This document shows, one piece after another, positions 1 through 35,312 of a stretch of DNA of 64,000 nucleotides (the stretch's first letter is position 1; every line of letters begins with the position of its first letter). The DNA comes from an uncultured Pseudomonadota bacterium (GTDB taxonomy: Bacteria > Pseudomonadota > Gammaproteobacteria > Steroidobacterales > Steroidobacteraceae), in the NCBI GenBank assembly GCA_903838705.1, contig CAILZL010000039.1, forward strand, positions 1-64,000, in the 5' to 3' direction. The notes under the pieces are model-generated. The model was not told the origin of the DNA. It ran no database searches and worked only from the letters and a program-made list of their open reading frames with translations. The translations under genes and the position numbers were made by a program.

Positions 1-870
1 AATATCTGTCAGGCCTGGGGTTATACCCGTGGTCTGCAGGGCGATGATCATGCGCTTGAAGAAGCAGTGGAGAAGGGCAAGAAGAAATATGTGGGATATG
101 AACTGCCGGGTCGCACGCTGGGAGTGATCGGACTGGGTGCCATCGGCGTGGAAGTGGCCAACGCAGCGCACTTGCTTGGTATGAAGGTGCTGGGGTTTGA
201 TCCGGCCATTACCGTGCAGCGCGCATGGCAGCTGTCGTCCGGCGTAGAGCAGGCATTGTCACTGGATGATCTGTTCGCCCGCTCGGACATGGTTACTGTG
301 CATGTGCCGTTGATTGAAGCCACCAAGGGCATGGTGAATGCTGCACGCCTGAAACTGATGCGCAAAGGCAGTGTGATCCTGAATTTTTCACGTGCCGGTA
401 TTGTGGATGAGGCTGCAATGATTGCTGCACTGGACAGTAATCATATCGGTTCTTACGTCTGTGACTTTCCGACCAATGCGGTCAAAGATCATGCAAAAAT
501 TATTGCTTTGCCGCATCTCGGTGCTTCCACTCATGAGGCCGAAGAAAACTGCGCCATCATGGTGGCCGATACCCTGCGTGAGTTTCTTGAACACGGCAAT
601 GTGCGCAATGCTGTGAATTTTCCTGAGTCGGTTCTGCCCCGCACCCAGAACTCGGTACGGTTGGCCATTGCAAATGAAAATGTGCCCAACATGGTGGGGC
701 AGATTTCCAGCGCACTGGCCAGTGCCAGTCTGAATATTGCCGACCTGCTCAACAAGTCGCGGGGAGATCTGGCGTACAGTCTGATTGATGTAGATGGTGC
801 AAACATCCCGGACTCTGTGGTGCAGCAATTGCGTGCGATTCCGGGTGTCCTGTCAGTGCGCGTACTGTAA
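1..870 (+). CDS. serA: D-3-phosphoglycerate dehydrogenase, 3' part (5' end outside window)
   Basis: This enzyme oxidises 3-phosphoglycerate with NAD, the first step of serine synthesis. The frame is open from base 1, so the N-terminal part lies outside the window and about 289 residues are visible. The Rossmann motif GLGAIG (about 133-150), the substrate-site stretch NFSRAGIVDE and the catalytic-His region PHLGASTHEAEEN are all present. The last 75 residues look like an ACT regulatory domain (NVPNMVGQISSALASASLNI), so this is the short serine-sensitive type. pheA follows 14 bases after the stop, which suggests cotranscription with the aromatic amino acid genes. Confidence 0.93.
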   Translation, partial: NICQAWGYTRGLQGDDHALEEAVEKGKKKYVGYELPGRTLGVIGLGAIGVEVANAAHLLGMKVLGFDPAITVQRAWQLSSGVEQALSLDDLFARSDMVTVHVPLIEATKGMVNAARLKLMRKGSVILNFSRAGIVDEAAMIAALDSNHIGSYVCDFPTNAVKDHAKIIALPHLGASTHEAEENCAIMVADTLREFLEHGNVRNAVNFPESVLPRTQNSVRLAIANENVPNMVGQISSALASASLNIADLLNKSRGDLAYSLIDVDGANIPDSVVQQLRAIPGVLSVRVL

Positions 871-884
871 GCGAGTGAAGTAAC

Positions 885-2075
885 GTGGCGACCCGCAAGA
901 CCAAAGCGAAAGCAGCAGCTCTCAAGCCGGTTGGCAAAGGCAGCAGTCGAAAGACCTCTGCTAAATCTGCGGATGTTCCGGCAGTGGTGCCGCCGCTGAG
1001 TGAGATACGCGCACGCATTGACGGAATAGACAACCGCTTGCTGGAGTTGCTCAGCGAACGCGCACGACTTGCTCAGGTGGTGGGGCAGTCCAAGCGGCAG
1101 CAGGAAAACATCAGTACAGCTGATTTATATCGGCCTGAACGCGAATCGCAGGTACTGCGGCGCGTACTCGAAAACAATAACGGCCCTTTGCGCAATGAGG
1201 AAGTCGCGCGCTTGTTCCGGGAAATCATGTCGGCCTGTCTTGCCCAGCAGGAGCCGTTGAAGGTCGGGTTTCTTGGCCCCGAAGGTACATTCACGCAGCA
1301 GGCGGTATACAAGCATTTCGGTCATTCTGTACGCGGTGTATCGCTGTCTTCCATTCCTGAAGTTTTTCATGAAGTCGAAGCCGGGCACACAGACTTTGGC
1401 GTGGTGCCAATCGAGAACTCCACGGGTGGAGTGGTTGAGTTCGCCATCGACATGTTCCTCAACACGCCCCTGAAAATCTGTGGCGAGATTGAGCTGCGCG
1501 TGCATCAGAATCTGATGGGCAGAATGAACGGGCTGAAAGCAATCAAGCGTGTCTGTTCACATCCGCAATCGTTATCGCAATGCCAGCAGTGGCTGCATGA
1601 ACATCTGCCGGACGTGGAGCTGATTCCTGTTGTCAGCAATTCCGAGGCCGCCCGACGTGCGCGCGATGAAGAGGGAACAGCTGCAATTGCCGGGCAGATT
1701 GCTGCCGAGATTTACAAGCTGGATATCATCGTGCCGGAAATTGAAGATCGTGCAGATAACACCACACGGTTTATCGTTCTGGGTCGCAAGTCATTTGCTC
1801 CGAGTGGCCACGATAAAACTACATTGATGGTGTCATCCGGGGATACCCAGTCGCCGGGGACTCTGCATCGCCTGCTGGCGCCTCTGGCGCGTAATCAAAT
1901 CAGCATGTCGCGTATCGAGTCACGTCCTTCGCGTCGCAAAAAGTGGGACTATGTTTTCTTCATGGATGTGGAAGGTCATATGGACACTGAGCCATTGCGT
2001 TCTGCCTTGCAGGAATTGAAGCAGCATTCGTCGCTGTTCAAGGTGCTGGGTTCGTATCCTGCTGCGGTGCTGTAA
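885..2075 (+). CDS. pheA: Bifunctional chorismate mutase / prephenate dehydratase (P-protein)
   Basis: This protein converts chorismate to prephenate and then to phenylpyruvate, the committed route to phenylalanine. It has 396 residues with a GTG start. A Lys/Ala-rich N-terminal extension of about 30 residues is followed by an AroQ-type chorismate mutase (SEIRARIDGIDNRLLELL), a prephenate dehydratase domain beginning KVGFLGPEGTFTQQA with the TTRF motif, and a C-terminal ACT domain carrying the ESRPS phenylalanine-binding motif. It is slightly longer than typical P-proteins because of the N-terminal extension. An internal start would remove that extension and cannot be excluded. serA lies immediately upstream and hisC downstream. 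Confidence 0.95.
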   Translation: MATRKTKAKAAALKPVGKGSSRKTSAKSADVPAVVPPLSEIRARIDGIDNRLLELLSERARLAQVVGQSKRQQENISTADLYRPERESQVLRRVLENNNGPLRNEEVARLFREIMSACLAQQEPLKVGFLGPEGTFTQQAVYKHFGHSVRGVSLSSIPEVFHEVEAGHTDFGVVPIENSTGGVVEFAIDMFLNTPLKICGEIELRVHQNLMGRMNGLKAIKRVCSHPQSLSQCQQWLHEHLPDVELIPVVSNSEAARRARDEEGTAAIAGQIAAEIYKLDIIVPEIEDRADNTTRFIVLGRKSFAPSGHDKTTLMVSSGDTQSPGTLHRLLAPLARNQISMSRIESRPSRRKKWDYVFFMDVEGHMDTEPLRSALQELKQHSSLFKVLGSYPAAVL

Positions 2076-12701: not shown

Positions 12702-13028
12702 TTGTGCCTGTATCCCAGAAATGGTTTCTGGAAGCAAGCAACTGTGTACCATGTTTGAGGCTTTGTTCAGATGGTATCTTTCCCCTGTGTTGCACGGTCT
12801 GCTGGATATTCTGCTGTGTGAACGGGGTCACATCTTGGGGTGCGGTTCAGGCCGGGTGGATGCTCGATAAAGCGGGACGGTTTTGGCATAGATACGCATG
12901 AGCATGCTCGGGGTATACTTTGCAAAGTAAAAGGGGCCAATCAGGTGGTCAGAGTGGGTACTCTGCTGCCTTGGGTTGAATTCGGTTTCGAATTTTTTCT
13001 TAATGTTCAGGAATCTCCGGGGGTTGAA
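12702..13028. promoter_or_regulatory. Divergent gap between protease and dsbA-like gene, with palindromes
   Basis: This region of about 330 bases has no convincing gene. It holds a 10-bp palindrome GAGCATGCTC (12900-12909) and a perfect 14-bp palindrome TACTTTGCAAAGTA (12916-12929), which overlaps a TATACT hexamer. These are candidate operators for either flanking gene. The reading frame upstream of dsbA stays open here but has no clear signal peptide or coding character. Confidence 0.4.
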
Positions 13029-23201: not shown

Positions 23202-24401
23202 TCAATAGCGAATGGAATATTGGGCCATGTAGACATTCGCTCCATAGCTGTAAAGCGGCTGGCTACCCGGAGAGGCTTTGACTGTGGCGTCCCTGAAGTC
23301 ATGGAAGTTGTACTGGTAGTGATCAATATAGGCGCTGATGACGCTGCTCACCTTGGGGGTATGGTGCCAGTTCCAGCTGGCACCGAGTCGCACTGACCAG
23401 TCATTGAATGTGGAAAGCAGTTTGTCGCGAGCCAGAAAGTTCTGCGCATCAATGAACGGGAACAGATCCGAGTAGAAGTCAGCATGCTTCTGTGTGTAGT
23501 AGCGTGCAGTACCCTCAAATGTCCAGTTGTTGCCTATCGGGTGTACATACTCAAGATCGCCATTGTTCGACACAATGCCCCAGCTGTCTGTGTAATGGCG
23601 ATAACCGAGCTTGGCTGAGGCTCGATATGGCAGGTAGTACCGGGCATCAATTGCCACGGCATTCGATGTGCGGGTGCGAGGAAAGCGTTCACTCTGAGTG
23701 GCGGGCGTGGCATTGGCAGGGCCATACCGCACGCTGCGATACGGGTTTTGCAAGTAGCCTTCAAGCGCGCTGGATTCGTAGTTGATGCCGACCAGCATGC
23801 TCCTGGTCAGAATCTGCGAGAAGCCCAGTCGATAACTGCGCCGTTTGGCATTGCTTTCGGATTCCTTGCCAATACCCGCTGCAGGCTCATAGATGCCTTT
23901 GGAGATTCTTTTACTGATCTCGTCCTTGCCGCTGCTATAGCCCAGCGTAACTGTTGTCAGATCACCAAACATGTCTTCGTTAATGCTGAAGTTCAGGTTA
24001 TTGGAGAGGTAATCCGGTTCAGAGCTTTTGAGATAGCTGGCATTGTAGGTGGTTTTGCCGCGAAGATAGGATCCGCCACCGCTCCATTCCTTGCGCTCTT
24101 CCTTGTAGGGGCTGGCTGATGTCATGACATCAATTGAAGCACTGGAGACCATGTCGACATCGTAGGTGGCATTGGCAGCGATGTTTTCACTGAACTTCTT
24201 GCGTACAAAAAGCGAGGGACCTTTTACTTCGACGCCGCCACCGTCATATACATGATAGAGCAGGTCGGCACGGTCTTCGGGCAGTACACCTGCCTCGGTC
24301 GAAAGACTGTAAGTGGCTGATAACAACAGCAACGCACTACGCGCCACCAGCTTCAGTATGAATGGCAGGCGAATCCAGTTGATGAAACTCTGATTACACA
24401 T
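23202..24401 (-). CDS. DUF3570 outer-membrane beta-barrel protein
   Basis: This is a predicted outer-membrane barrel of 399 residues from the ATG at 24401, whose A is shared with the stop of the upstream DUF4266 gene (TAATG); an ATG at 24416 lies within that gene. A signal peptide (LKLVARSALLLLSATYSLS) precedes the DUF3570 signature: VEVKGPSLFVRKKF, then DVDMVSSASIDVMTSASPY. Alternating aromatic strands run to the C-terminal YMAQYSIRY, a classic terminal strand ending in Tyr. Function is unknown. It is the last gene of a six-gene operon. Confidence 0.88.
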   Translation of the reverse strand: MCNQSFINWIRLPFILKLVARSALLLLSATYSLSTEAGVLPEDRADLLYHVYDGGGVEVKGPSLFVRKKFSENIAANATYDVDMVSSASIDVMTSASPYKEERKEWSGGGSYLRGKTTYNASYLKSSEPDYLSNNLNFSINEDMFGDLTTVTLGYSSGKDEISKRISKGIYEPAAGIGKESESNAKRRSYRLGFSQILTRSMLVGINYESSALEGYLQNPYRSVRYGPANATPATQSERFPRTRTSNAVAIDARYYLPYRASAKLGYRHYTDSWGIVSNNGDLEYVHPIGNNWTFEGTARYYTQKHADFYSDLFPFIDAQNFLARDKLLSTFNDWSVRLGASWNWHHTPKVSSVISAYIDHYQYNFHDFRDATVKASPGSQPLYSYGANVYMAQYSIRY

Positions 24402-24643
24402 TAGAGACAACCACAACCGCCGCCTGCGCCGCCTGTTGCACCGTGTGCGCCTTCTCTTACCTCACGGATATGATCTGTATACGCACTGATGGCGGGGTTG
24501 CGATCAGCTGACATGATTTCATCCGCCATCGCCGCACGTTCATACGGCTTGACCCATGGTTGCAGTGAGCTGCATGCATTCAGGATCATGCTGATGCATA
24601 TCAGGCAGGCCATGCGAATCGTGACGGATCTATTCAGCATCAT
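24401..24643 (-). CDS. DUF4266 small lipoprotein with Gly/Cys-rich tail
   Basis: This lipoprotein has 80 residues. The lipobox MILNAC puts the lipidated Cys at residue 24. The core motif LQPWVKPYERAAMADEIM is the DUF4266 signature, and the tail is HIREVREGAHGATGGAGG followed by GCGCL at the C-terminus. DUF4266 and DUF3570 genes are regular neighbours, and here they share the overlapping TAATG. The CxC tail suggests metal or thiol chemistry, but no function is established. The preceding gene ends 3 bases upstream. Confidence 0.87.
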   Translation of the reverse strand: MMLNRSVTIRMACLICISMILNACSSLQPWVKPYERAAMADEIMSADRNPAISAYTDHIREVREGAHGATGGAGGGCGCL

Positions 24644-24646
24644 AGA

Positions 24647-25162
24647 TCACTCCTTGAGCAGTGCGCGTATCTGCGCAAGATATTCGGCTTCATCACCGGG
24701 TTTGTAGCCACGATGCAGCGCCCGCACATTACCTTTTCGGTCAATGAATACAGTGCTTGGCATGGCACTGACTTCGTAAAGTTTGCTTACATTGTTCGTG
24801 CGGTCAAATGCGATAGGGAAACTGACAGGCACCTGTGACAGAAATTTCTGCGCATCAGTGGAATCTGTGTCTACGTTTACACCCAGCATGGTGAAGCCAA
24901 GGCTGCTGTATTTCTTGTAGATCTGATCCATGAGTGGCATTTCAGTACGACATGGGCCACACCATGATGCCCAGAAGTTCAGCATGACAACCTGGCCTTT
25001 CAGTTTTGCCAGTTCAATTGCTTCGCCGGACTTTCCGGGCAGACTGAATGCGGGGGCGGCGCTGCTTGTGCCGGTGCCATGAGCGGGCGAAATGAGAGTG
25101 AACAGCAGCAGACTCAGGCAGGTTGCGGCCTTGATGAATGCGGAATTAGAGGTTGCCTTCAT
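24647..25162 (-). CDS. TlpA-like periplasmic thioredoxin-fold protein
   Basis: This is a secreted thiol-disulfide protein of 171 residues from the ATG at 25162; an ATG at 25195 would add 11. A signal peptide (TCLSLLLFTLISPAHG) is followed by an AhpC/TSA-type redoxin fold with the active site NFWASWCGPCRTEMP (Cys68, Cys71) and the cis-Pro segment YEVSAMPSTVFIDRKG. In TlpA/ResA proteins this site reduces substrates such as apocytochrome c. The neighbouring CxxCH genes make haem attachment a plausible job, by inference. Confidence 0.9.
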   Translation of the reverse strand: MKATSNSAFIKAATCLSLLLFTLISPAHGTGTSSAAPAFSLPGKSGEAIELAKLKGQVVMLNFWASWCGPCRTEMPLMDQIYKKYSSLGFTMLGVNVDTDSTDAQKFLSQVPVSFPIAFDRTNNVSKLYEVSAMPSTVFIDRKGNVRALHRGYKPGDEAEYLAQIRALLKE

Positions 25163-25200
25163 TCGATATGCCTCCAGCAGAATTAGTGGTGCCATGTTCT

Positions 25201-25908
25201 CTAAAAGAAGAACGACAGACCAAGACTCGCTTCAAGATTATTGACGACCTTTTTCTTGCCAAGCAGATCGGTGTCATAAAGATAATCCCGTATATCAATA
25301 TGCGTGGCCAGCCAGTCAGTTAACAGAAGGCGGCAGCCGAATCCGCCGTTAAGGGTGAACCGGTCATCGCCAGCGAAGTGAGTGGATCCTGCGCCAATCA
25401 GGAAATACAGCGCTGTGTTGTAAGCGCGGTTTTCACCGACGAATACTTCGCCGGGAAGTGCATTCCAGCCTGCGGAGAGTGCGTAGTAGTTGTACTTGCG
25501 CTGCGGTTCGGTGATGACCTGGATATTGAACAGGGATTCGGCACTTGAAATGCCGGCCTTGCTTTGTCCATACGACCCTTCAACGAAGAAAGATTCGGTG
25601 ACATGGTAAGCAAGGCGTGCACCCACAACTGGGTGACTACCGAAGTCTTCGATACTGATTACGCCACCGTAGGCACCGAGCTCGAAGTTTTCAGAGTCGA
25701 TACGGGGTGTTTTGATCGTACGCCGTTCAACTTTGGGTTCAATCACCGGTTCGGTAATTTCTGCGCTGGTCGGGCTGCTGGCATTACTGACAACGGGTGC
25801 ATTGTTGGGTTCGCTGTCAGGTACCTCGTTGCGATGCAGCAAGGCACAACCGCTGCTCAGCAGGACAAGCAGCGGGATCAGAAGAAAAAGGCGAAGCCGG
25901 TTTTCCAT
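25201..25908 (-). CDS. Outer-membrane beta-barrel lipoprotein-like protein
   Basis: This protein has 235 residues. An N-terminal signal with a lipobox-like LSSGC (Cys21) is followed by a low-complexity Ser/Glu/Pro linker, then a barrel domain starting FELGAYGGVISIEDFGSHP and ending SLGLSFFF with a terminal Phe. It resembles the outer-membrane barrel family common in myxobacteria that occurs beside SH3-barrel proteins. It overlaps the upstream SH3 gene by 31 bases and lies in the same operon. Its function is unknown. Confidence 0.8.
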   Translation of the reverse strand: MENRLRLFLLIPLLVLLSSGCALLHRNEVPDSEPNNAPVVSNASSPTSAEITEPVIEPKVERRTIKTPRIDSENFELGAYGGVISIEDFGSHPVVGARLAYHVTESFFVEGSYGQSKAGISSAESLFNIQVITEPQRKYNYYALSAGWNALPGEVFVGENRAYNTALYFLIGAGSTHFAGDDRFTLNGGFGCRLLLTDWLATHIDIRDYLYDTDLLGKKKVVNNLEASLGLSFFF

Positions 25909-26609
25909 TCTGTAGATTCCTCGTTTTCATTGCGACTGGTATAGGTGTAGTTGTTGTGATACTCGGCACGGGCGATGAACCGGCGGCTGATATACAGCCG
26001 AACACCTGCGCCAAAAAAACTCATCTGGTCAGTGGTGTCCACTTCCTGAACCTGAGTGGTATGCGGTCGCGTCCGGATCAATCCCGTACCGATGGAAAGA
26101 TATGGGCTGACACGCCACTCCGGAAACAGAGTATGGGTGATATCAAGAGTTGCCATTTCCATATTCGAGATATTGCCCAGGGCATGATTCAGCGTCAGCT
26201 GTACTGACATGTGGTCGGTTAATCCATAGCTGCCACTCAGGGAGATCAGACTGGCACCGTCGAAATCGCCCAGCATCAGGCTGCCCTGGAACCGGCTTCG
26301 GCTCAGGCTTTCAAGTGTCGGAGCGTCCAGTTTGATCACATTGCCATCCGGGTCCAGTGTATGCAGCAACTGCTGTTCGGTCACCCAGCCTTCACGACCC
26401 TGGTGTTCCCGAACCAGATACCAGCCTGTGCGTTCCTTCAGTACTTCAATCCTGTCGTCGCGGCTAACCACAAAGAATACCGGATAACCTTTGCCGGGGC
26501 CGGTGTGCAGCTCAATAAAGGGGTCGGCCACCACCACTTCGAGTGTGTTTGTTGCAGCGAATACTGATGTCGCGATGCATGACAGCAACAGGAAGAGCAG
26601 GCACCGCAT
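25878..26609 (-). CDS. SH3-domain outer-membrane barrel protein
   Basis: This is an exported protein of 243 residues. A signal peptide (CLLFLLLSCIATSVFA) is followed by a bacterial SH3 domain (DPFIELHTGPGKGYPVFFVV, then WYLVREHQGREGWVTEQQL). A barrel-like region of about 130 residues ends WKTGFAFFF. Bacterial SH3 domains often bind peptidoglycan, so this protein could tie the outer membrane to the wall. Its ATG overlaps the stop of the upstream HzsA-related gene (TAATG), which shows tight coupling. Confidence 0.85.
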   Translation of the reverse strand: MRCLLFLLLSCIATSVFAATNTLEVVVADPFIELHTGPGKGYPVFFVVSRDDRIEVLKERTGWYLVREHQGREGWVTEQQLLHTLDPDGNVIKLDAPTLESLSRSRFQGSLMLGDFDGASLISLSGSYGLTDHMSVQLTLNHALGNISNMEMATLDITHTLFPEWRVSPYLSIGTGLIRTRPHTTQVQEVDTTDQMSFFGAGVRLYISRRFIARAEYHNNYTYTSRNENEESTEWKTGFAFFF

Positions 26610-29470
26610 TAATTCACCGGTGCCTTGAACGGATCATTGTAGTACTGGGCACCGATATCTACCCATTCTGAAATCAGTTTCAGTTCACCGGCAGTCAACC
26701 ATGGGGTACCTGCCGTGGCGTGTGAGCCCGAGCTGGTGAACTTGTTGAAAAAGCGCGAGGCGGCAGCATTTCGGGCTATCAATGAAGGACTCACAGTTTC
26801 GAAAAGGGTGCAGGTCTGCACCATGGTAACGGGATCAGTGACAAATTGCAGGCAGTGATCCTGCAGCACATTGCCCACCAGTTCCTGTGCGTTGTAACCG
26901 AACAGCAGTTCCTGGTAAGACATCACCCGTAAACCGTTGTTGTTTGATGCATCGCTAGTCAGATCCAGTTGTCCTGCAGGTACGCGTGTAGCATTAGTTG
27001 CATCGGTTCGGCTATGGCAGGCCAGACAATTATCTTTTGCATCGATCACATTATCACCGTTGGCATCAAAACCCAGCGGACGTTCCCAGATGGGCTGGAT
27101 ATGTTCCAGATAGTTGATGGTAATGCGACAGATATTGGACCAGACCGTCAGGCAGGCACTGCTGGTGGGAACCTTGGTAGTCAGACCGCCTGTGCCTGCG
27201 TAACGAATACTGAAATCGCCGCTGCGCGATGTTGTGGGGTTAACCCTGGAATCCGAGGTGCCCGCCGGCCAGACATCAGCAAAGGCCAGATTTACACCCG
27301 GTGTCATTGAGGCACATTGTTCGAAGCTGCAGCTCCATCGGGCGCGCGCCTGGGCCATCGTGTCACCGGCATTGCCGGAAATAAAACCCGGGTTGGCATT
27401 GTTGAAGGCGATGCCTGCACTGCTGGCACCACCATACACAGACGCGAACAGGCCGCTGCGTCCATGCGAGATGCCGCTTTGTCCGGCGGGTATGTTGGTA
27501 CTCCTGGTGTGACAGCCATTGCATTGCACAGTCTCTCCCGGTCGCAGGGTTAACCAGGCATTGTGAGACGGAAAACTGTTAACGTGTCTGCCGTTGGTAT
27601 CGACGACAGAAATCTGGAAGGCGACATTGGCGGGAACTTTAAAGCGCACTGAACCATCCGGTTCAACCGGAATGTAACCAAGTATTTCACGCATGAAACT
27701 GGTGGCACCGAAAGCATTGTTATCTATATTCCGTACATCCCTGTCAGGCAATGACACGGCTTTTTCAATGCGCAGGAAGCGGGCAGGCCGGTTGTCATAG
27801 CAAGTCGGGTTGGCAGGATCGGAATTCGTTTCAATGGTGCAGCCTGCTCCCGTCGCATTGGCCACTCCATCAAAGTCATACACGCTGCGTATATCCAGTA
27901 TGCCCACTCCTTCACCCTTCAGCGTCTGGTCTACGCTCGTATTGTTTGCAAGGCTGTATGGTCTGAAGCTGGGTGCCGTGCGTGGTTGTGCAACAGCCAG
28001 GTCAGATACCATCACGCCGGAAGTGGGGGTGACTACTGGTTGCTGTGTACCATCGCCGGGGTTAAGCATCCACACGCTGTAAGTAGGAGCTGCGGCAAGA
28101 TAGGCAGGATTAGACAGAGTGCTGTCGGTACATAGCACAGGTGCCTTACTTACCGGATCAATCAGGCGGCACTGCGACCAGGACACCAGCAGACGATTTG
28201 TACCATCCCACAATGGTACTGCCGACACGAACCGTCCCCCCGGGGAGGGTGCGTTGATCAATCGAACATTAATCGGAGTGGACTTGCTTTGTGCGGGCCC
28301 GATCCAGCCTGCGCTGGTCAGTGTGGGTTGGTTGTTTTCCACATATTTCTGAGTATCGATGATGTACAGGTCGCCACCGTACTCTGTGCCATTGAAAGGT
28401 CTGATCAGTGAAAGTATCTGGCCATCGGGCATTTCTCTCGGCCTGGTGAACTGCACAGACGGAAAGGTGGTGGCGCCAGTGCTGCTCGTATCAGTGAATG
28501 TAGTGTGACTGGCTGAACCATATAGCAGTTGTGTGTTGGTGCCATCGGGGTTGGTGGTATACAGATGAACGCCATTTCGACCCGGTGCATGGTCCCAGCG
28601 GCTGAATACGATGCGGCCATCTGATAATACAGTCGGATCGAGATCATGGCTCTGGTTGAAAGTGATTTGCTGGATGTTGGTGCCATCAGCATTCATCACA
28701 TGCAGCACAAAAGCCGATTCATTGCGGTTTTCATCCTGTGCTTCAAATTGTCCCTTGTTTTCATCCAGCAATACGGCCTTGGACTGGTACTGCCGGGTAG
28801 AGGAAAAGAGAATGTGACCATCAGGCAGGTAGTGTGGTGATACATCCTGACCTTCCTCAGCTATCACGTTGGAGCTGATAATCCGTCGCAATGTATCTGT
28901 GGCGATGGTGTATTCCCAGATATTCCAGGTTGGCGGATCTTTGTCATCCTGATTGTCAGTCAATGGACCCCGCATGGCGAAAATCACCTTGCTGGCATCC
29001 GCTGAGACATCCACGTCTTTGACATCCCACAATTCGTTGGCTGGATGGATGCGTGCGGTGATGTTGTGCTCCGCAGCGCTGGGAGAGGCGCGGTCACGCA
29101 TATACAGGTCTGCGTTGGTGTTGAATACGCGCAAGCGGCGTACATCGTCCAGATTATTGCTTACCGCATGCGTTATATCCGGCGTGATTCGCTTGACGTA
29201 AAAAATGGGGAAGTCGCCAGCGCTGATCGTTCCGGTATTGCCTGTCTGGCCTGAACCAATACGTATTGTGTCCTGACTTCCACCGCCGCAGGCTGACAGG
29301 AGGAAGACAAGTGACATGCATGTCAAACCATGGATACGCAATGAGTGACTTTCGGGCATTGTGGCAGGCAAGCTGGAACCAGCTCGGCATTCTGCTGCAC
29401 GCAGTAAAAGTGCGGCAATGGATTCAATAATGAAGTGGTATATGGACCGGGCGCGCATGCACATGCTCAT
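26609..29470 (-). CDS. HzsA-related lipoprotein, PD40 repeats and two c-type haem motifs
   Basis: This is a large secreted protein, 953 residues from the ATG at 29470, which has GAGGA 7 bases upstream. An internal ATG at 29359 gives a neater lipoprotein signal (SLVFLLSACGGG). The first half has TolB-like PD40 blades (DVSADASKVIFAM, SPHYLPDGHILFSS, DPTVLSDGRIVFSRW). The second half has CNGCH near residue 645 and CLACH near 812, plus the ITINYLEHIQPIW motif of proteins annotated as hydrazine-synthase-alpha related. Such proteins outside anammox bacteria have no proven reaction. It is the first gene of the six-gene minus-strand operon. Confidence 0.85.
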   Translation of the reverse strand: MSMCMRARSIYHFIIESIAALLLRAAECRAGSSLPATMPESHSLRIHGLTCMSLVFLLSACGGGSQDTIRIGSGQTGNTGTISAGDFPIFYVKRITPDITHAVSNNLDDVRRLRVFNTNADLYMRDRASPSAAEHNITARIHPANELWDVKDVDVSADASKVIFAMRGPLTDNQDDKDPPTWNIWEYTIATDTLRRIISSNVIAEEGQDVSPHYLPDGHILFSSTRQYQSKAVLLDENKGQFEAQDENRNESAFVLHVMNADGTNIQQITFNQSHDLDPTVLSDGRIVFSRWDHAPGRNGVHLYTTNPDGTNTQLLYGSASHTTFTDTSSTGATTFPSVQFTRPREMPDGQILSLIRPFNGTEYGGDLYIIDTQKYVENNQPTLTSAGWIGPAQSKSTPINVRLINAPSPGGRFVSAVPLWDGTNRLLVSWSQCRLIDPVSKAPVLCTDSTLSNPAYLAAAPTYSVWMLNPGDGTQQPVVTPTSGVMVSDLAVAQPRTAPSFRPYSLANNTSVDQTLKGEGVGILDIRSVYDFDGVANATGAGCTIETNSDPANPTCYDNRPARFLRIEKAVSLPDRDVRNIDNNAFGATSFMREILGYIPVEPDGSVRFKVPANVAFQISVVDTNGRHVNSFPSHNAWLTLRPGETVQCNGCHTRSTNIPAGQSGISHGRSGLFASVYGGASSAGIAFNNANPGFISGNAGDTMAQARARWSCSFEQCASMTPGVNLAFADVWPAGTSDSRVNPTTSRSGDFSIRYAGTGGLTTKVPTSSACLTVWSNICRITINYLEHIQPIWERPLGFDANGDNVIDAKDNCLACHSRTDATNATRVPAGQLDLTSDASNNNGLRVMSYQELLFGYNAQELVGNVLQDHCLQFVTDPVTMVQTCTLFETVSPSLIARNAAASRFFNKFTSSGSHATAGTPWLTAGELKLISEWVDIGAQYYNDPFKAPVN

Positions 29471-29898
29471 TGCGAAATCCTCGCAGCGAAATCCATCTTG
29501 ATAATGATTAATAAATCGAGCACGTCTGATTTTCTACATAAGTCGGCCGGTCCGGGCATGATCAACGTGATCAGAGTTTGTAGCCGTTAACAAACTCACA
29601 GAAGTCGAGCATGGTATTAAGGTTCTATCCTGTCCGTTGGCGGATGGCATTTTAATAGTCATTTCACAGAGTGTGAGACGGATCACAAAACGCCTCTGGC
29701 GGCAGGGTATCTGATGCATTCATTCAGGTGCAAGCCTACCGATCATCACGGTGTAGCACAGTTGTCTCCTGTGTACGACGTGGCAACAGTGAGACAGGTG
29801 GATCGTTTCCAGGGTGGCCTTTAATCTTCAGCCACAGGTGACCAGTTCCGTTATTGATATTCGATCAGGTGATAGTTTGTGTCAGGCGGATGTCAAAG
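29471..29898. promoter_or_regulatory. Shared divergent control region of the haem-protein clusters
   Basis: No gene is seen here. It contains TTGATAATGATTAA (29498-29511), which matches the FNR/Anr box TTGAT-N4-ATCAA at 9 of 10 positions and overlaps a Fur-like GATAATGAT. It also holds paired TGATCA sites (29559-29573) and an 8-bp inverted repeat GAGTTTGT/ACAAACTC (29574-29597). A perfect CRP-type site TGTGA-N6-TCACA lies at 29672-29687. Both operons probably start here. Confidence 0.6.
29672..29687. promoter_or_regulatory. CRP/Vfr-type operator TGTGA-N6-TCACA
   Basis: Both half sites match the CRP consensus exactly with the right 6-base spacer (GACGGA). It lies about 200 bases from the start codon of each divergent operon. 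Confidence 0.6.
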
Positions 29899-31155
29899 AT
29901 GACCGTAACCAGAGTGATAAATACAGTGGCAGTACAAACCGTCATAGCTACCTTCCCTTCAGGCTGCAATAAAGTTGTCAGCAGGGTCATATATTCGACA
30001 CTGATGGCAGTGTTGTCAGTTGTGCTGGCGGGCGCATGGCAGTCCACGGTACAGGCGGCTCCCCGGGATCAGGCCAAACGTATTCATGATCGCCTGACCG
30101 GTACACCACCATCTGACAGTTTGCTCACGCAGATGACCGCGATGGTTCAGGCCAATAATGCACTGGGTGCCGCACAGCTGGCCATCAATCCGGCCAATGC
30201 CGAATCGAAGGGTTTTTACAATGTGACATTGAAGAACTTTGCTACGCCATGGACTAACCGTGACCGTACGGTGTTTGCTCCTTTGAATGATTACACGGCA
30301 ACCGTGATCGGAATGGTGCGTGACAATGTGCCATTCAACACCCTGCTGTCAGCCGATCTGGTCTATATCGGTAATACTGCTGGCGTACCTGCATTTGCCG
30401 CCACTAATAACAATCACTATCAGTTTCTGGAAGACACCGATGCTGACCTGCGAACAGTGCTGGTCTCAAGAACACAATCTTCCCTGACCGGCATTCCCGC
30501 CGCCGCTACTGCCGGAGTAATTACCTCACGCGCTGCAGCAGAGGCATTTTTTATTGATGGTACCAATCGCGCCATGTTCCGCTTCACAATGCTGAATCAT
30601 CTGTGTCATGACATGGAGCAGGTGCATGACACTACTCGTCCACCTGACCGGATACGTCAGGATGTCAGCCGTAGTCCGGGTGGCGACAGTCGAGTGTTCC
30701 TCAACGGTTGCATAGGTTGTCACAGCGGTATGGATCCACTGGCACAGGCCTTTGCATTTTATGACTTTGACAAGACGGCGGGGCGACTGGTTTATACCGG
30801 TGAAGCGGTGCAGCAGAAATACGGCATCAATATTGATAACTTCAAGCCCGGTTTCGTCACACCGAATGACAATTGGGAGAATCGCTGGCGTGAAGGTCCC
30901 AACAAGGCATTGGGATTCAGTGCCTCCCTGTCTGGATCCGGGGCAGGTGCCAAGTCAATGGGGCAGGAGCTTGGCGACAGCAACGCCTATGCACAGTGCC
31001 AGGTTGAGAAGGCCTTCAAGGCAGTGTGTTTGCGCGAACCGGGAAATTCTGCAGATCGCAACAAGGTCACGGAAATAACATCGTCATTCAAAACCAGCAA
31101 CTACAGCATGCGTGAAGTGTTTGCTGAGGCAGCGGTTTACTGCATGGGGAATTGA
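29899..31155 (+). CDS. Exported protein with one c-type haem motif, DUF1588/DUF1585-like
   Basis: About 418 residues. The start is uncertain: the ATG at 29899 has AGGCGG 9 bases upstream, and the frame is open from a TTG at 29854. A basic stretch and a hydrophobic run (LMAVLSVVLAGAWQ) ending VQA-APRD form the signal. The central motif SRVFLNGCIGCHSGMDPLA holds the single CxxCH, with context like the haem region of DUF1588/DUF1585 proteins of planctomycetes and gammaproteobacteria, where a haem site precedes AFxFYDFDKTAGR-like text. The rest has no recognised domain. It is the first gene of the plus-strand operon. Confidence 0.78.
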   Translation: MTVTRVINTVAVQTVIATFPSGCNKVVSRVIYSTLMAVLSVVLAGAWQSTVQAAPRDQAKRIHDRLTGTPPSDSLLTQMTAMVQANNALGAAQLAINPANAESKGFYNVTLKNFATPWTNRDRTVFAPLNDYTATVIGMVRDNVPFNTLLSADLVYIGNTAGVPAFAATNNNHYQFLEDTDADLRTVLVSRTQSSLTGIPAAATAGVITSRAAAEAFFIDGTNRAMFRFTMLNHLCHDMEQVHDTTRPPDRIRQDVSRSPGGDSRVFLNGCIGCHSGMDPLAQAFAFYDFDKTAGRLVYTGEAVQQKYGINIDNFKPGFVTPNDNWENRWREGPNKALGFSASLSGSGAGAKSMGQELGDSNAYAQCQVEKAFKAVCLREPGNSADRNKVTEITSSFKTSNYSMREVFAEAAVYCMGN

Positions 31156-31222
31156 GTTACCGCTCAATCTACCTGACGGAACATTGAATATGATCTTAAC
31201 GAGCTTAATTGAGGATGGCCGC

Positions 31223-33697
31223 ATGCGAACTGCATACAGAGCTGTAACTGGCGGCTTGTTCAGGCTGATAGCTGGAGGTGCACTGCTTGTCGTTCTGTCA
31301 GCATGCAGTGGCGGTGCTAATACTGAAAAGAATGTGGATACAGCTGCTGCTGCGCTGTCGCTCAATTATGCCGGACCTGCCCCCGGCTCTGCTGATGTAC
31401 AGGCATTCAAGAATGAGTTCTGGGTTAATGTGGTCTCATCACAGCGTTGCGGTGGGTGTCACAACCAGATTACCGGCCAGTCACCAGCGTTCGCACGCAG
31501 TGATGATGTGAATCTTGCCTATCAGGCTGCATTGCAGGTAGTAAATCTGGCGCAACCTGATCAGTCCCGTGTTGTGGCAAAGGTGGCGGGTGGGCATCAC
31601 TGCTGGACCAGCAGTACTTCAGTGTGTGCAGACATCCTGACAACCTGGATTCGTAACTGGGCCAGCGCCTCGGGTAACACAGGCAGTGGCACTCAGATAC
31701 AGCTGGTGGCACCGGTGGATAAGAATGTGGGTTCAACCAGGACATTTCCGGCAGCTGCAACCGGGTTCTCCACCACGGTGTATCCATTGCTGACACAGTA
31801 TTGCTCGGGCTGTCATGCTGCGAACGCAGCCACGCCGCAGAAACCCTATTTCGCCAGTAATGATGTGAATGAAGCTTATGCGGAGGTTCATTCCAAAATA
31901 AATCTGGACTCACCTTCTCTGTCACGTCTGGTGGTCAGGCTGCGCGACGAGTCGCATAACTGCTGGAGCGATTGCGCTGCTAATGCCGCAACCATGTTAA
32001 GTGCCATCAATGCCTTTGTGGGTACCATACCGGTTACACAGATTGATCCAACGCTGGTGTTGTCAAAAGCCCTGACCATGTATGACGGCACAGTGGCATC
32101 GGGCGGCAATCGCTATGAAGCACACACGATTGCTCGTTATTTCTTCAAGGAGGGAACGGGCTCTACAGCATTTGATACCAGTGGTGTTGAACCTGCCGCC
32201 AATCTCACTCTGACCGGTGCAATTGCGTGGTCAGGCGGCTGGGGGTTAAGTGTCGCCACAGGTGGTAAGGCGCAAGCTACAACTTCTTCCAGCAAGAAGT
32301 TGTCAGATCGCATCAAGGTTTCAGGTGAATACACCATTGAAGCCTGGGTTGCACCTGCCAATGTGGCTCAGGAAAATGCCAATATCGTCAGTTATTCTGG
32401 CGGCAATGCTTCCAGAAATATGACGTTAGGGCAGCATGGCTACCAGTATGAAGCTTATGCACGTAGCAGTAACAGTGATGGCAATGGTGAGCGGGTGCTT
32501 ATCACGAATGCCGCAGACCGTGATGCCCAGGCTTCTTTGCAGCATGTAGTGATGACCTATGATCCGGCCGGCGGTCGCAAGCTCTACGTAAATGGAGTAT
32601 TTACGGGTGATGCGGATTCTCTGTGTGGTGGCTCGTTGAGCAATTGGGATGACACTTTCGCACTGGTACTGGGAAATGAGACATCCGGTACCCGTCAATG
32701 GACCGGGTTGCTCAAGTTTGTGGCCATACACGATCGCGCATTGACTCTGGAGCAGGTTCAGCAGAACTTTGCCGCAGGAGTGGGCGAGCGTTACTTTATG
32801 CTGTTTAATGTCAGCACTTTGACCAATGTGACGCAAAGCTACATCATGTTCGAAGTGTCACAGTACGACAGCTATTCGTATCTGTTCAACAAGCCTACCT
32901 TCATTAGTCTGGCGCCTGATGCTCAACCGGGCAGCATTCAGATCAAGGGTATGCGTATTGGTATCAATGGAACTGAAGCCCCGGTTGGACAGGCCTATAT
33001 CCCGCTTGATGTTACGGTCTCAAATGCCAACTACAATGCTGTCACGGGCCAGCTGCTGTCCAGTGTAGGGACTGTTATCAGTCTTGAAAAAGGACCGAAT
33101 GCAGATCTGTTCTTTCTGACATTCGAAAAGATTGGGTCACATTCCCGTGTCTATACAGATACGACAGTGCTGAGTTCTGTGGCAGCACCTGATGTCGCGC
33201 CCGTGTCGGATATCGGTTATCGGGTATTCGAACAGATAGATGCCACGATGTCGAAGATCACCGGCGTGCCACGAACTAACTCAACTGTGAGAGCCACATA
33301 TGGACTGGTCAAACAGCAGTTGCCGACAGTGGCCGGCATCGATGCATTCCTCAGTTCACATCAGATCGGCATCGCCCAGTTGGGCAGTTCGTACTGCAGT
33401 GCACTGGTTGAGGACAATACGATGCGCTCGAGTTTCTTTCCGGGTCTGGATCTCAATGTCAGTAGCCTTGCAACAACTACTGAAAGGAATGCAGTGATTG
33501 ATCCGCTACTCAGTCGTGCTGTGGGATCAGGCCTGGTGTCGCAGCCTGTGAGTACAGATGTGCGCAGCGAACTGAATAACCTGATGGATCGTCTGTGCAC
33601 GGGCGGTAGTTGTACTGCTGGCAGTACGCGCGTCAAGGTGGTTGTCAAGGCGGTCTGTACCGCTGCCCTCGCCAGTGCGGTTACAACTGTTCAGTAA
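31223..33697 (+). CDS. LamG-domain lipoprotein with two duplicated c-type haem modules
   Basis: 824 residues from the ATG at 31223, chosen because GAGGA lies 7 bases upstream and the upstream frame runs into the previous gene. The lipobox is VLSAC (Cys28). Two similar modules of about 75 residues follow, each with CxxCH (CGGCH 76-80; CSGCH 194-198), a DDVNxAY-type segment and a closing HxCW...C. A LamG/concanavalin-like domain (about residues 320-490, with YTIEAWVAP and LYVNGVFTG) comes next, then about 300 residues without recognised domains. It probably sits on the cell surface and may bind a polymer or partner protein. Function is unknown. Confidence 0.83.
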   Translation: MRTAYRAVTGGLFRLIAGGALLVVLSACSGGANTEKNVDTAAAALSLNYAGPAPGSADVQAFKNEFWVNVVSSQRCGGCHNQITGQSPAFARSDDVNLAYQAALQVVNLAQPDQSRVVAKVAGGHHCWTSSTSVCADILTTWIRNWASASGNTGSGTQIQLVAPVDKNVGSTRTFPAAATGFSTTVYPLLTQYCSGCHAANAATPQKPYFASNDVNEAYAEVHSKINLDSPSLSRLVVRLRDESHNCWSDCAANAATMLSAINAFVGTIPVTQIDPTLVLSKALTMYDGTVASGGNRYEAHTIARYFFKEGTGSTAFDTSGVEPAANLTLTGAIAWSGGWGLSVATGGKAQATTSSSKKLSDRIKVSGEYTIEAWVAPANVAQENANIVSYSGGNASRNMTLGQHGYQYEAYARSSNSDGNGERVLITNAADRDAQASLQHVVMTYDPAGGRKLYVNGVFTGDADSLCGGSLSNWDDTFALVLGNETSGTRQWTGLLKFVAIHDRALTLEQVQQNFAAGVGERYFMLFNVSTLTNVTQSYIMFEVSQYDSYSYLFNKPTFISLAPDAQPGSIQIKGMRIGINGTEAPVGQAYIPLDVTVSNANYNAVTGQLLSSVGTVISLEKGPNADLFFLTFEKIGSHSRVYTDTTVLSSVAAPDVAPVSDIGYRVFEQIDATMSKITGVPRTNSTVRATYGLVKQQLPTVAGIDAFLSSHQIGIAQLGSSYCSALVEDNTMRSSFFPGLDLNVSSLATTTERNAVIDPLLSRAVGSGLVSQPVSTDVRSELNNLMDRLCTGGSCTAGSTRVKVVVKAVCTAALASAVTTVQ

Positions 33698-33734
33698 TTA
33701 CCCGGTCACACGAATAGCGTTCAGAGAGTCAGTC

Positions 33735-35312
33735 ATGATAATTCGCAAGCCACAGCCGAAAGCATTGGGATTGAATGAACCTCTGCGCCACAACGATCAC
33801 AAGCGACCGGTATCACGCCGCGACTTTATCGCGCAGGGATTCATGACGGGAGGCGCCACGCTGGTGGCTTCGCCACTGCTGGGCATGATGATGAGTCCCG
33901 GCAAGGCCATGGCGCTATCAGCTGATGTCTGGCGCAACAATATCTGCAATATCCAGCAGGGAGCAGGCAAAGTGCCGTTCATCTGTTTTGATCTGGCGGG
34001 CGGTGCAAATATTGCCGGGTCCAATGTACTGGTGGGCAATCAGGGCGGACAGATGGATTTCCTCTCGACTGCCGGATATTCCAAGCTCGGCCTGCCCGGC
34101 AACATGATTCCGAATACATCTGTTGGCGGTACGTTCATTGATACGCAATTCGGGCTGGCTTTCCATAGCGACAGTGCTTTTCTCAGGGGCATGTTAATGA
34201 CCACCTCTGCAACCACGCGTGCCATGGTGAATGGTGCGGTGATTCCGGCGCGCTCTGAAAATGATACCGGCAACAATCCGCACAATCCTATGTACGGGAT
34301 TGCCAGAGCAGGTGCACGGGGTGAATTGCTTTCATTGATTGGTTCACAAAGCTCGGAGTCAGGAGGTAATTCTGCTGCCCCGTCGATGCTGATAGATCCC
34401 ACTGTTCGACCTACCAAGGTAGACCGTCCTTCGGATGCGACTGGGCTGGTCGATACGGGTGAGCTGTCGACCTTGTTTCCGAAACCGGCTGATACAGTTG
34501 CAGTGATGGAGTCGATTGAGCGATTGAGTCGCGACAAGCTGGCGGCAGTGGATACCAGGTTGACCAATGATGCCGCTATGAAGCAACAGGTGGATTGCAG
34601 CTATGTAAAGGCAGCGGATCTGGCAGAGCGCTTCAGCAGTCCATCAGTTCTGGATGCGACCAAGGATGCAAACATCACCAGCATCTTCTCCCCACTGGGT
34701 GGAATTGCTGCTGATGCTGAGTTTGGTAAAACGGCTGCGGTCATGAAGCTGGTGGTCGATGGTATGGCTGGAGCTGGCACCATTACCATGGGCGGGTTTG
34801 ACTATCACACCGGTAATCGCTCCACAGGTGAAGCACGCGATTTTCGCGCCGGGCTGTGTATGGGGGCCTGTCTGGAATATGCCGCACGTACCGGCAAGCC
34901 ATTAATGCTGTATGTGTTCAGTGATGGTTCACTCAACTCTAACGGCATGATCGACAATTCAGTCGGCGGGCGCGGCAAGGGTCAGTGGACCGGGGACAAT
35001 CAGTCGACAGCTGCATCATTCTTTCTGGTACTGAATCCGGCCGGCAAGCCTACTACTTATCCTGTAGGCCCGGTACCTGCTGCGCGTCGTCAGCAGCTGG
35101 GCTACTTCCGTGCATCAGGTGATGTTGAAACCTCGGGCAGCCCGGGCGCGAACTCCGTGGTCACACTGGTAGACATGGTGCTGCTGAATTATATGGCGTT
35201 GCATGGCGAGCAGAATCAGTTTGCCACCAGATTTCCCGTCAGCGTGTTGAATGGTCAGATTGATAACTGGATTGCATTTAATCCGGTCGTGAATGGCAAG
35301 ATCGGTGGCTGA
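33735..35312 (+). CDS. Tat-exported DUF1501-like protein
   Basis: 525 residues from the ATG at 33735; the frame upstream overlaps the LamG gene and is not needed. The twin-arginine signal is VSRRDFIAQGFMTGG. The mature part contains ICFDLAGGANIAGSNVLVG near the start, GFDYHTGNRSTGEARDF, YVFSDGSLNSNG and the C-terminal SVVTLVDMVLLNYMALHGE, resembling DUF1501 (sulfatase-fold-like) secreted proteins that pair with DUF1800 or haem proteins. Tat export suggests it folds or binds a cofactor before transport. The gene lies 37 bases after the LamG gene, in the same operon. Confidence 0.8.
   Translation: MIIRKPQPKALGLNEPLRHNDHKRPVSRRDFIAQGFMTGGATLVASPLLGMMMSPGKAMALSADVWRNNICNIQQGAGKVPFICFDLAGGANIAGSNVLVGNQGGQMDFLSTAGYSKLGLPGNMIPNTSVGGTFIDTQFGLAFHSDSAFLRGMLMTTSATTRAMVNGAVIPARSENDTGNNPHNPMYGIARAGARGELLSLIGSQSSESGGNSAAPSMLIDPTVRPTKVDRPSDATGLVDTGELSTLFPKPADTVAVMESIERLSRDKLAAVDTRLTNDAAMKQQVDCSYVKAADLAERFSSPSVLDATKDANITSIFSPLGGIAADAEFGKTAAVMKLVVDGMAGAGTITMGGFDYHTGNRSTGEARDFRAGLCMGACLEYAARTGKPLMLYVFSDGSLNSNGMIDNSVGGRGKGQWTGDNQSTAASFFLVLNPAGKPTTYPVGPVPAARRQQLGYFRASGDVETSGSPGANSVVTLVDMVLLNYMALHGEQNQFATRFPVSVLNGQIDNWIAFNPVVNGKIGG

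Follow-up and report, generated by a model that had tools for sequence, protein, structure and literature searches.

A conserved nine-gene redox cluster of the gammaproteobacterial outer membrane and its association with an Agl/Glt-like motor core

The locus considered here is a cluster of nine genes in two divergent operons, located within a 64,000-nucleotide stretch of an uncultured Steroidobacteraceae genome (assembly GCA_903838705.1, contig CAILZL010000039.1, positions 1 to 64,000; "the window" denotes this whole stretch), and its closest described relatives have been reported as separate systems. Statements drawn from published work refer here to particular passages of each source. Luciano et al. 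(2011; PMC3169522) described a core composed of gltC, gltD, gltE and gltG with aglR, aglQ and aglS, which was given as having an unknown function in Gammaproteobacteria and which carries in that class an extra gene absent from the Myxococcales, and Wartel et al. (2013; PMC3858216) described the gammaproteobacterial core as standalone. On the redox side, DUF3570 is a proven substrate of the flavin transferase ApbE, and a hybrid relay has been proposed for the clusters in which it is accompanied by DUF4266, a thioredoxin-like protein and DsbD (Meheust et al. 2021, eLife; PMC8238504); section 5 of a further source (PMC11334425) does not treat DUF3570. The fold of the hydrazine synthase (HZS) alpha subunit, HzsA, is found in many proteins outside anammox, with no confirmed function among the top matches considered in PMC12758564.

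Our locus combines features of these systems. With the clusters of Meheust et al. it shares a DUF3570 barrel (gene A), a DUF4266 lipoprotein with a CxC motif (B), a thioredoxin-like redoxin (C), two sites in the flavinylation frame, and an ApbE that is encoded elsewhere in the genome or, for relatives, within the locus; it differs from them in the additional genes D, E, F, G, H and I, in the motor core that accompanies it in relatives, and in the glycine of the site, which is mostly replaced here by serine, threonine or alanine. With the Agl-Glt and Agl-Nfs core (PMC3169522, PMC3858216), the genes that accompany the set in relatives share a TolQ-like protein, two TolR-like proteins, a GltG/TonB-like protein with an AgmX C-terminus, and TPR proteins. 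They include a further gene, K, that may be the extra core gene left unnamed by Luciano et al., and whereas the published gammaproteobacterial core stands alone, the core described here is often joined to the redox outer-membrane module and to ApbE.

The system is real, widespread and conserved, the window holding its redox half, and in some relatives the nine-gene set shares one operon with a proton-driven motor complex that resembles the gliding and spore-coat motors of Myxococcus. We tentatively read the nine genes as the outer-membrane redox half of a larger machine whose other half is the Agl/Glt-like core, an interpretation to which we give slightly less than even weight. The whole would then best be understood, with the same reserve, as an outer-membrane system of thiols, flavins and haems that is linked to a motor. 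The genes and sites of the window are as follows, with coordinates given for the longest open reading frames (ORFs).

23202 to 24416, minus strand: A, DUF3570 outer-membrane barrel and putative flavinylation substrate (PF12094, 3.8e-41; Sec-type signal by eye)
24135 to 24155, minus strand: flavinylation-type site 1 of A, DMVSSAS, residues 88-94, in the frame D-x-x-[S/T]-x-A-[S/T]
24111 to 24131, minus strand: flavinylation-type site 2 of A, DVMTSAS, residues 96-102, same frame, less conserved
24401 to 24643, minus strand: B, DUF4266 lipoprotein ending in CGCL (PF14086, 3.4e-19)
24407 to 24415, minus strand: C-terminal CxC of B, C77 and C79, read from the sequence
24647 to 25195, minus strand: C, TlpA/ResA-type redoxin with CGPC (Redoxin, 1.6e-30)
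25201 to 25908, minus strand: D, OMP_myx_plus outer-membrane barrel with a lipobox recognised by eye (TIGR04565, 162.8 bits, cut-off 60)
25878 to 26609, minus strand: E, SH3 domain and outer-membrane barrel (SH3_3, 9.3e-11; OMP_myx_plus, 28.3 bits, below the cut-off of 60)
26609 to 29470, minus strand: F, HzsA-like two-haem propeller lipoprotein, likely start 29359 (HZS_alpha, 1e-16; PD40)
27509 to 27523, minus strand: haem motif 1 of F, CNGCH, aligning with CSGCH of HzsA
27014 to 27028, minus strand: haem motif 2 of F, CLACH, aligning with a second CxxCH of HzsA
29471 to 29853, no strand: divergent intergenic region between F and G, bounded by the longest ORFs
29854 to 31155, plus strand: G, PSCyt3/PSD2-like one-haem protein, the window protein lying below the Pfam cut-offs
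30709 to 30723, plus strand: haem motif of G, CIGCH, with C286, C289 and H290 invariant in 31 of 31
31112 to 33697, plus strand: H, LamG two-haem lipoprotein, likely start 31223 (Laminin_G_3, 6.1e-22)
31448 to 31462, plus strand: haem motif 1 of H, CGGCH, with C113, C116 and H117 invariant in 30 of 30
31802 to 31816, plus strand: haem motif 2 of H, CSGCH, with C231, C234 and H235 invariant in 30 of 30
33642 to 35312, plus strand: I, Tat-exported protein with a predicted alkaline-phosphatase-like fold, likely start 33735 (no Pfam family in the window protein)
33816 to 33821, plus strand: twin arginine of I, R59-R60, in columns invariant in 31 of 31

The original prediction, made from the letters of this stretch, had proposed nine genes in two divergent operons for a cell-envelope redox system, and both the arrangement (six ORFs on the minus strand, three on the plus strand) and the redox character were borne out: the set comprises a flavinylation-type barrel, a CxC lipoprotein, a redoxin and five c-type haem sites (two CxxCH motifs in F, one in G and two in H). 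Export features were recognised in all nine products, as had been expected of proteins that leave the cytoplasm; this was judged by eye and with patterns, no signal-peptide program being used. The lipobox pattern is present in 34 of 37 F homologues and 29 of 30 H homologues, and the pattern RRxF[LIVAM] in 26 of 31 I homologues. Three outer-membrane barrels, one with SH3, were also recovered (A at 3.8e-41, D at 6e-48 with OMP_myx_plus, E by its SH3_3 domain), as were the LamG two-haem lipoprotein, the TlpA-type redoxin and the DUF4266 lipoprotein. Overlapping start and stop codons, the basis for calling the operons tight, are real for F/E and E/D on the minus strand; those on the plus strand are doubtful because they rest on over-long starts. 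The starts of F, G, H and I probably lie further inside than those of the longest ORFs, the likely ones, chosen by eye among candidates, being ATG 31223 for H, ATG 33735 for I and, probably, ATG 29359 for F. A consensus promoter scan of the cluster gave fewer promoter-like sites than shuffled sequences, and terminator-like sites were about as frequent as in shuffles. The alignments behind these and later counts retained 37 of 42 F, 31 of 38 I, 31 of 40 G, 30 of 38 H, 52 of 52 A, 13 of 24 M and 16 of 22 K sequences, the rest being dropped by eye; the source lists for F, G, H and I were already without short pieces.

Conservation of the set was followed in two overlapping collections: the named loci, which are the best 80 of 587 confirmed matches and are for that reason biased to close relatives, and 61 stretches from relatives, among which are 12 short clusters and several fragments of contigs; some named loci are the same contigs as stretches from relatives. 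In what follows G numbers denote genomes (G000 being the window's own), L numbers loci and C numbers contigs, and letters without numbers denote genes. All nine genes are present in 61 of the 80 named loci; among the remaining 19, contig ends cut 18, and one (L244) is without C. The complete set was found in 29 of the 61 relatives' stretches, window included. Across 98 relatives, I occurs in 46, F in 52 (50 of them strong) and DUF4266 in 56, and 37 of the 45 genomes with both I and F have the two on a single contig, in every case divergently oriented and separated by 3.8-4.9 kb. Among the named hosts are Steroidobacter, Povalibacter, Marinobacter, Microbulbifer, Paraglaciecola, Sedimenticola, Thiodiazotropha, Porticoccus and Gilvimarinus. 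Homologues that never co-occur had been named in advance as the outcome that would speak against the prediction, and the neighbourhood comparison found the set syntenic in dozens of genomes. In the gene lists, H stands before G in L187 owing to an over-long overlapping ORF, and L208 shows two E pieces. The full nine-gene set was also seen in L203 (CAMAVY010000010.1), a contig of a metagenome-assembled genome titled Klebsiella pneumoniae, with an I that is 63% identical to that of the window; the species label is probably wrong.

The motor core consists of a TolQ/AglR-like protein, two TolR-like proteins, a GltG/TonB-like protein, TPR proteins, the protein K of about 170 residues and a second redoxin, J. 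The window's own genome (2.74 Mb in 43 contigs, the window being its contig C39) has redoxin J together with genes K to R on its contig C3, at about 40.05-49.76 kb, so that the system is split and the window has one of its halves. In this copy O matches MotA_ExbB (5e-24) and P and Q match ExbD (6e-14 and 5e-17), which identifies a TolQ-like and two TolR-like proteins, and R carries the AgmX/PglI C-terminal domain at 70.1 bits, above the cut-off of 40. Compared with GltC, GltD and GltE, the same core has three TPR proteins, with 34.5 bits against the GltE model, whose cut-off is 225. K belongs to a conserved family that marks the core in these genomes, and the own copy (G000:C3:40642-41175) has no Pfam or NCBIfam match.

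Physical fusion of the two halves is seen directly in relatives. Downstream of I, the TPR proteins L and M are each found in 25 of the 80 named loci and K in 22 of them, all on the strand of I; the Sedimenticola locus (L204) runs through K, L, M, N, the TolQ-like O, the TolR-like P and Q, the AgmX/GltG-like R and ApbE, and 8 named Microbulbifer loci have the core downstream of I. G140, G222 and G253 carry one co-directional run of 15 genes, ApbE-F-E-D-C-B-A-K-L-M-N-O-P-Q-R, and in G111 I-H-G is divergent from F-E-D-C-B-A-ApbE-K-L-M.

Co-occurrence of the two halves extends beyond these fusions. A strong K, meaning 200 bits or more (a threshold chosen after the scores were seen), is present in 57 of 98 relatives, namely in 45 of the 46 with I vs 12 of the 52 without (Fisher p 2e-15), and in 49 of 50 with strong F vs 8 of 48 without. 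The sole relative with I and no strong K is G002, an 84% complete genome in which part of M is present. I and K share one contig in 31 of 45 genomes, and in 24 of these K lies at most 3.2 kb downstream on the same strand. Among 185 genomes of the class, I was found in 26 and K in 38, with K in 24 of 26 genomes with I vs 14 of 159 without (p 3e-18). A phylum-level search returned K in 9 of 249; the rows listed, a small share of the whole, are all of the same class, so this says little on other classes.

In the flavin-thiol module, A, B and C adjoin in the window as a DUF3570 protein, a CxC DUF4266 protein and a thioredoxin-like protein, which is the content of the DUF3570-type module. The aspartate of site 1 (D88) is invariant in 52 of 52 aligned DUF3570 proteins. 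Among 57 cluster DUF3570 proteins, counted from stretches that also hold F and from named loci with an uncut gene, [ST][GSA]AS is found at site 1 in all 57 (SSAS 31, SGAS 10, SAAS 8, TSAS 5, TGAS 3), and site 2 is looser, with [ST]xAS in 42. The published motif is D-x-x-[S/T]-G-A-[S/T] (PMC12052999); both window sites carry serine in place of its glycine, which is kept at site 1 as SGAS or TGAS in 13 of the 57 homologues. Since the window sites are without this glycine, we file the window set as related to the DUF3570 module, not as a strict member. Loop lengths do not decide on which side of the membrane the flavin sites of A would lie. The CxC of DUF4266 falls among the last 12 residues in 114 of 114 proteins counted, some of them present in two sets.

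Of the 80 named loci, 22 have an ApbE no more than 200 bases from the cluster and 27 have one anywhere in the fetched stretch; among the relatives' stretches with F, 16 of 46 hold one. Counted over whole genomes, any ApbE is found in 49 of 50 relatives with strong F vs 24 of 48 without, and in 54 of 56 with DUF4266 vs 19 of 42 without (Fisher p 5e-9, a value inflated by kinship). The window's own genome has three ApbEs, on C2, C4 and C2, and in the ApbE tree one of the two on C2 falls together with the ApbEs that adjoin the cluster in G013 and G024 (99/86), apart from those of 12 short clusters. Cluster-adjacent ApbEs thus belong to another clade than those of the short clusters, partly within the same genomes. 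These short clusters consist of TlpA-DUF4266-DUF3570-ApbE without F, G, H or I (L145-L155 and L161, from G030, G037, G041, G056, G010, G008, G019, G046, G079, G092, G065 and G032); those in G008, G019, G046, G065, G079 and G092 are second copies alongside the large system, and their ApbEs form a separate clade. For DsbD, the own genome gave one DsbD_TM match, on contig C16, away from the locus.

These parts suggest a mechanism in which proton flow through TolQ/TolR would power the GltG/TonB-like arm, and this arm, acting through the periplasmic TPR proteins, may engage the small barrels D and E. In parallel, a thiol relay would run from DsbD or a similar donor to the redoxins C and J and on to the CxC of DUF4266, from which electrons could reach one or two flavin mononucleotides presumably attached by ApbE to the DUF3570 barrel. 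The electrons would then pass outward to the haem proteins F, H and G, or come from them, and the Tat-exported I may be a partner enzyme of these three. At its fullest this would amount to a kind of machine not described before: a motor of the Agl/Glt type, driven by the proton-motive force, would be coupled mechanically to an electron chain of thiols, flavins and haems spanning the outer membrane, and both would serve one surface reaction by means of an HzsA-fold diheme enzyme; in this complete form the proposal is doubtful.

Several observations weigh against a single motor-linked system. The Fisher p-values overstate independence because the genomes are related by descent, and at E 0.001 or better K is found in 60 of 98 relatives. 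R scores 52.5 bits against the GltG equivalog, far under its cut-off of 650. No ApbE was found in the 64-kb window, the core and DsbD sit on other contigs than the window, and the other two own ApbEs lie on long branches of the ApbE tree. A review reports that a Gly-to-Ala change reduces flavinylation of another protein, and the window sites have no glycine at that position. The modules also part from each other: G018, G037, G053 and G057 have the core with E, D and A at a locus that holds no F, G, H or I, in genomes without F or I; the locus of G042 has D, E and the core only; G068, G081, G082 and G093 have F without I, the stretches of the first three holding A to F without G or H. The G-H-I block of G140 lies elsewhere in the genome, far from the 15-gene run, and in G130 (L319, G130:C1) G-H-I stands next to an F that is broken in two, no K being found in the genome. 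Finally, none of A to I adjoins the second cores of G045 and G065 or the second or weak ones of G115, G118 and G182.

The G130 cluster looks like a system in decay. L306 (G065:C33), L309 (G045:C1), L323, L333 and L334 are diverged Agl/Glt-like cores without redox genes alongside.

Among the alternatives, the one that survives best, although we hold it to be unlikely, takes the core for an assembly or surface-transport machine with F, G, H and I as its cargo. The redoxins and DsbD would merely keep haem-binding or structural cysteines reduced, as CcmG, ResA and TlpA do, and no electron chain would run through the barrel. Agl-Glt and Nfs machines move cargo along the surface (PMC3858216), the best subfamily match of C is ResA (6e-36, 124 bits, under the cut-off of 170), three of the supposed cargo proteins (F, H and I) are large and exported, and the G-H-I block is optional, all of which fits this view. 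It is opposed by the 12 short clusters, where the redoxin and DUF4266 accompany DUF3570 and ApbE although F, G, H and I are missing, and by G018, G053 and G057, where a redoxin remains next to DUF3570 in genomes without F or I. Within 3 kb of the short clusters, a CxxCH ORF of at least 90 residues is absent in 5 of 12 and present, by chance or as a real gene, in 7 of 12, so these clusters favour a thiol-flavin relay over a role in haem maturation only modestly.

A respiratory or extracellular electron-transfer conduit, the reading offered with the original prediction, would be similar to MtrCAB but with flavins and few haems and with the core as a neighbour of convenience; it appears considerably less probable. 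It would account for the five haem sites, the flavinylation-type barrel and the redoxin, all with export features, and very weak matches of the MtrC/OmcA type were obtained for H (E 0.06, Pfam) and F (E 0.012, NCBIfam). These matches are far under the cut-offs, and the multihaem cytochrome expected of a porin-cytochrome conduit of the MtrCAB type is not seen: the aligned F, G and H homologues carry at most three CxxCH motifs each (two in 27 of 37 F homologues, one in 5 and three in 5; one in 31 of 31 G; two in 30 of 30 H), and it is because of this haem count that we rate such a conduit low. The strong linkage and co-occurrence with the core, and the presence among the hosts of genera with very different lifestyles, also argue against it.

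We give still less weight to a surface-polymer or adhesion machine, in which the motor would move a glycan held by the LamG protein H and the barrels, with the redox parts modifying the polymer. Glt and Nfs do move sugar polymers (PMC3858216), H has a LamG domain, and the modelled fold of I resembles phosphodiesterases and sulfatases; against this, LamG is a common domain, and none of the top 14 families downstream of I has the look of polysaccharide export or synthesis (judged by eye, and with genes beyond A not clustered).

That F is a nitrogen enzyme of the hydrazine-synthase type, in a cluster that makes or consumes a small nitrogen compound, is scarcely credible despite an HzsA fold over most of its modelled length and the alignment of both haem motifs, since the proximal tyrosine is absent in all 37 F homologues and F scores 53.4 bits against an HzsA equivalog cut-off of 800 in NCBIfam.

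The structural resemblance behind this last alternative agrees with the original description of F as an HzsA-related two-haem PD40 lipoprotein. In its structure model (mean pLDDT 81), F has the HzsA fold and two c-haem sites: it matches 5c2v_A with a Foldseek value of 7.8e-25 and, over 85..953, a VIA Z of 31.7 (602 aligned, root-mean-square deviation 3.9), and further Foldseek and VIA matches to TolB and LRP-type proteins concern the propeller. F appears to share with the alpha subunit of hydrazine synthase (PDB 5c2v) the propeller, the middle domain and the two c-haem sites. In HzsA, haem alpha-I has a proximal tyrosine ligand four residues past the histidine of CxxCH (PMC12607021), whereas most F homologues have HGR after the first CxxCH. 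Pfam and NCBIfam scans of the cluster gave no HZS family match in the other eight genes, and no beta or gamma subunit was recognised among them.

The earlier statement that no known pathway matches this set is right in part only: A, B and C with ApbE correspond to the thiol/flavin hybrid described by Meheust et al. (2021), and in other genomes the set is joined to an Agl/Glt-like motor core. In the titles, abstract openings and passages of the papers listed, with subscription papers and supplements outside that scope, we found no description of the nine-gene set or of its fusion with the core. The parts are thus known already, and the whole set and its link to the orphan core did not turn up in the literature searched. 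An Agl/Glt-like core reported in 2011 and 2013 without a known role in Gammaproteobacteria gains a testable partner, and a DUF3570/DUF4266 electron-transfer module, reported in 2021 with uncertain function, meets this orphan core in one locus. Because the two share an operon in some genomes and occur together in culturable genera such as Microbulbifer, the same deletions can test both. In addition, an HzsA-fold protein far from anammox is placed in a genetic context open to study.

The remaining products of the plus-strand operon recall the planctomycete-type sets of PSCyt/PSD and DUF1501 proteins only in part. For G, described earlier as a one-haem DUF1588-like protein, the label is right but weak: at E up to 1, PSD2/DUF1585 is matched by 29 of 31 family members and PSCyt3/DUF1588 by 25 of 31, and the window protein falls under the Pfam cut-offs. 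For I, export by the Tat route agrees with the invariant twin arginine, and the DUF1501 part of the earlier label was dropped as an assignment, as neither the window protein nor any of the 31 members scanned matches PF07394 at E up to 1 (stray weak matches to other families occur in 3 of 31). We keep DUF1501 as a resemblance only, presumed from the look of the protein by eye. In its model, I appears alkaline-phosphatase-like, and in fold only, with a best Foldseek E of 7.7e-4 against the alkaline phosphatase superfamily and a best VIA Z of 12.2 (220 aligned, root-mean-square deviation 4.1). In-frame stops had appeared inside I of some relatives; in the 3 stretches checked, the stop falls at the C-terminus, 1 residue short of the match end.

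Downstream of I, the window carries a patatin-like gene (35418-37694), and a similar gene follows I in 6 of the 80 named loci. Elsewhere in the window, at 10953-12752, lies a gene for a subtilisin-like protease with a glycine-rich tail, a hydrophobic stretch and a basic end, a tail that we take to resemble a GlyGly-CTERM sorting signal.

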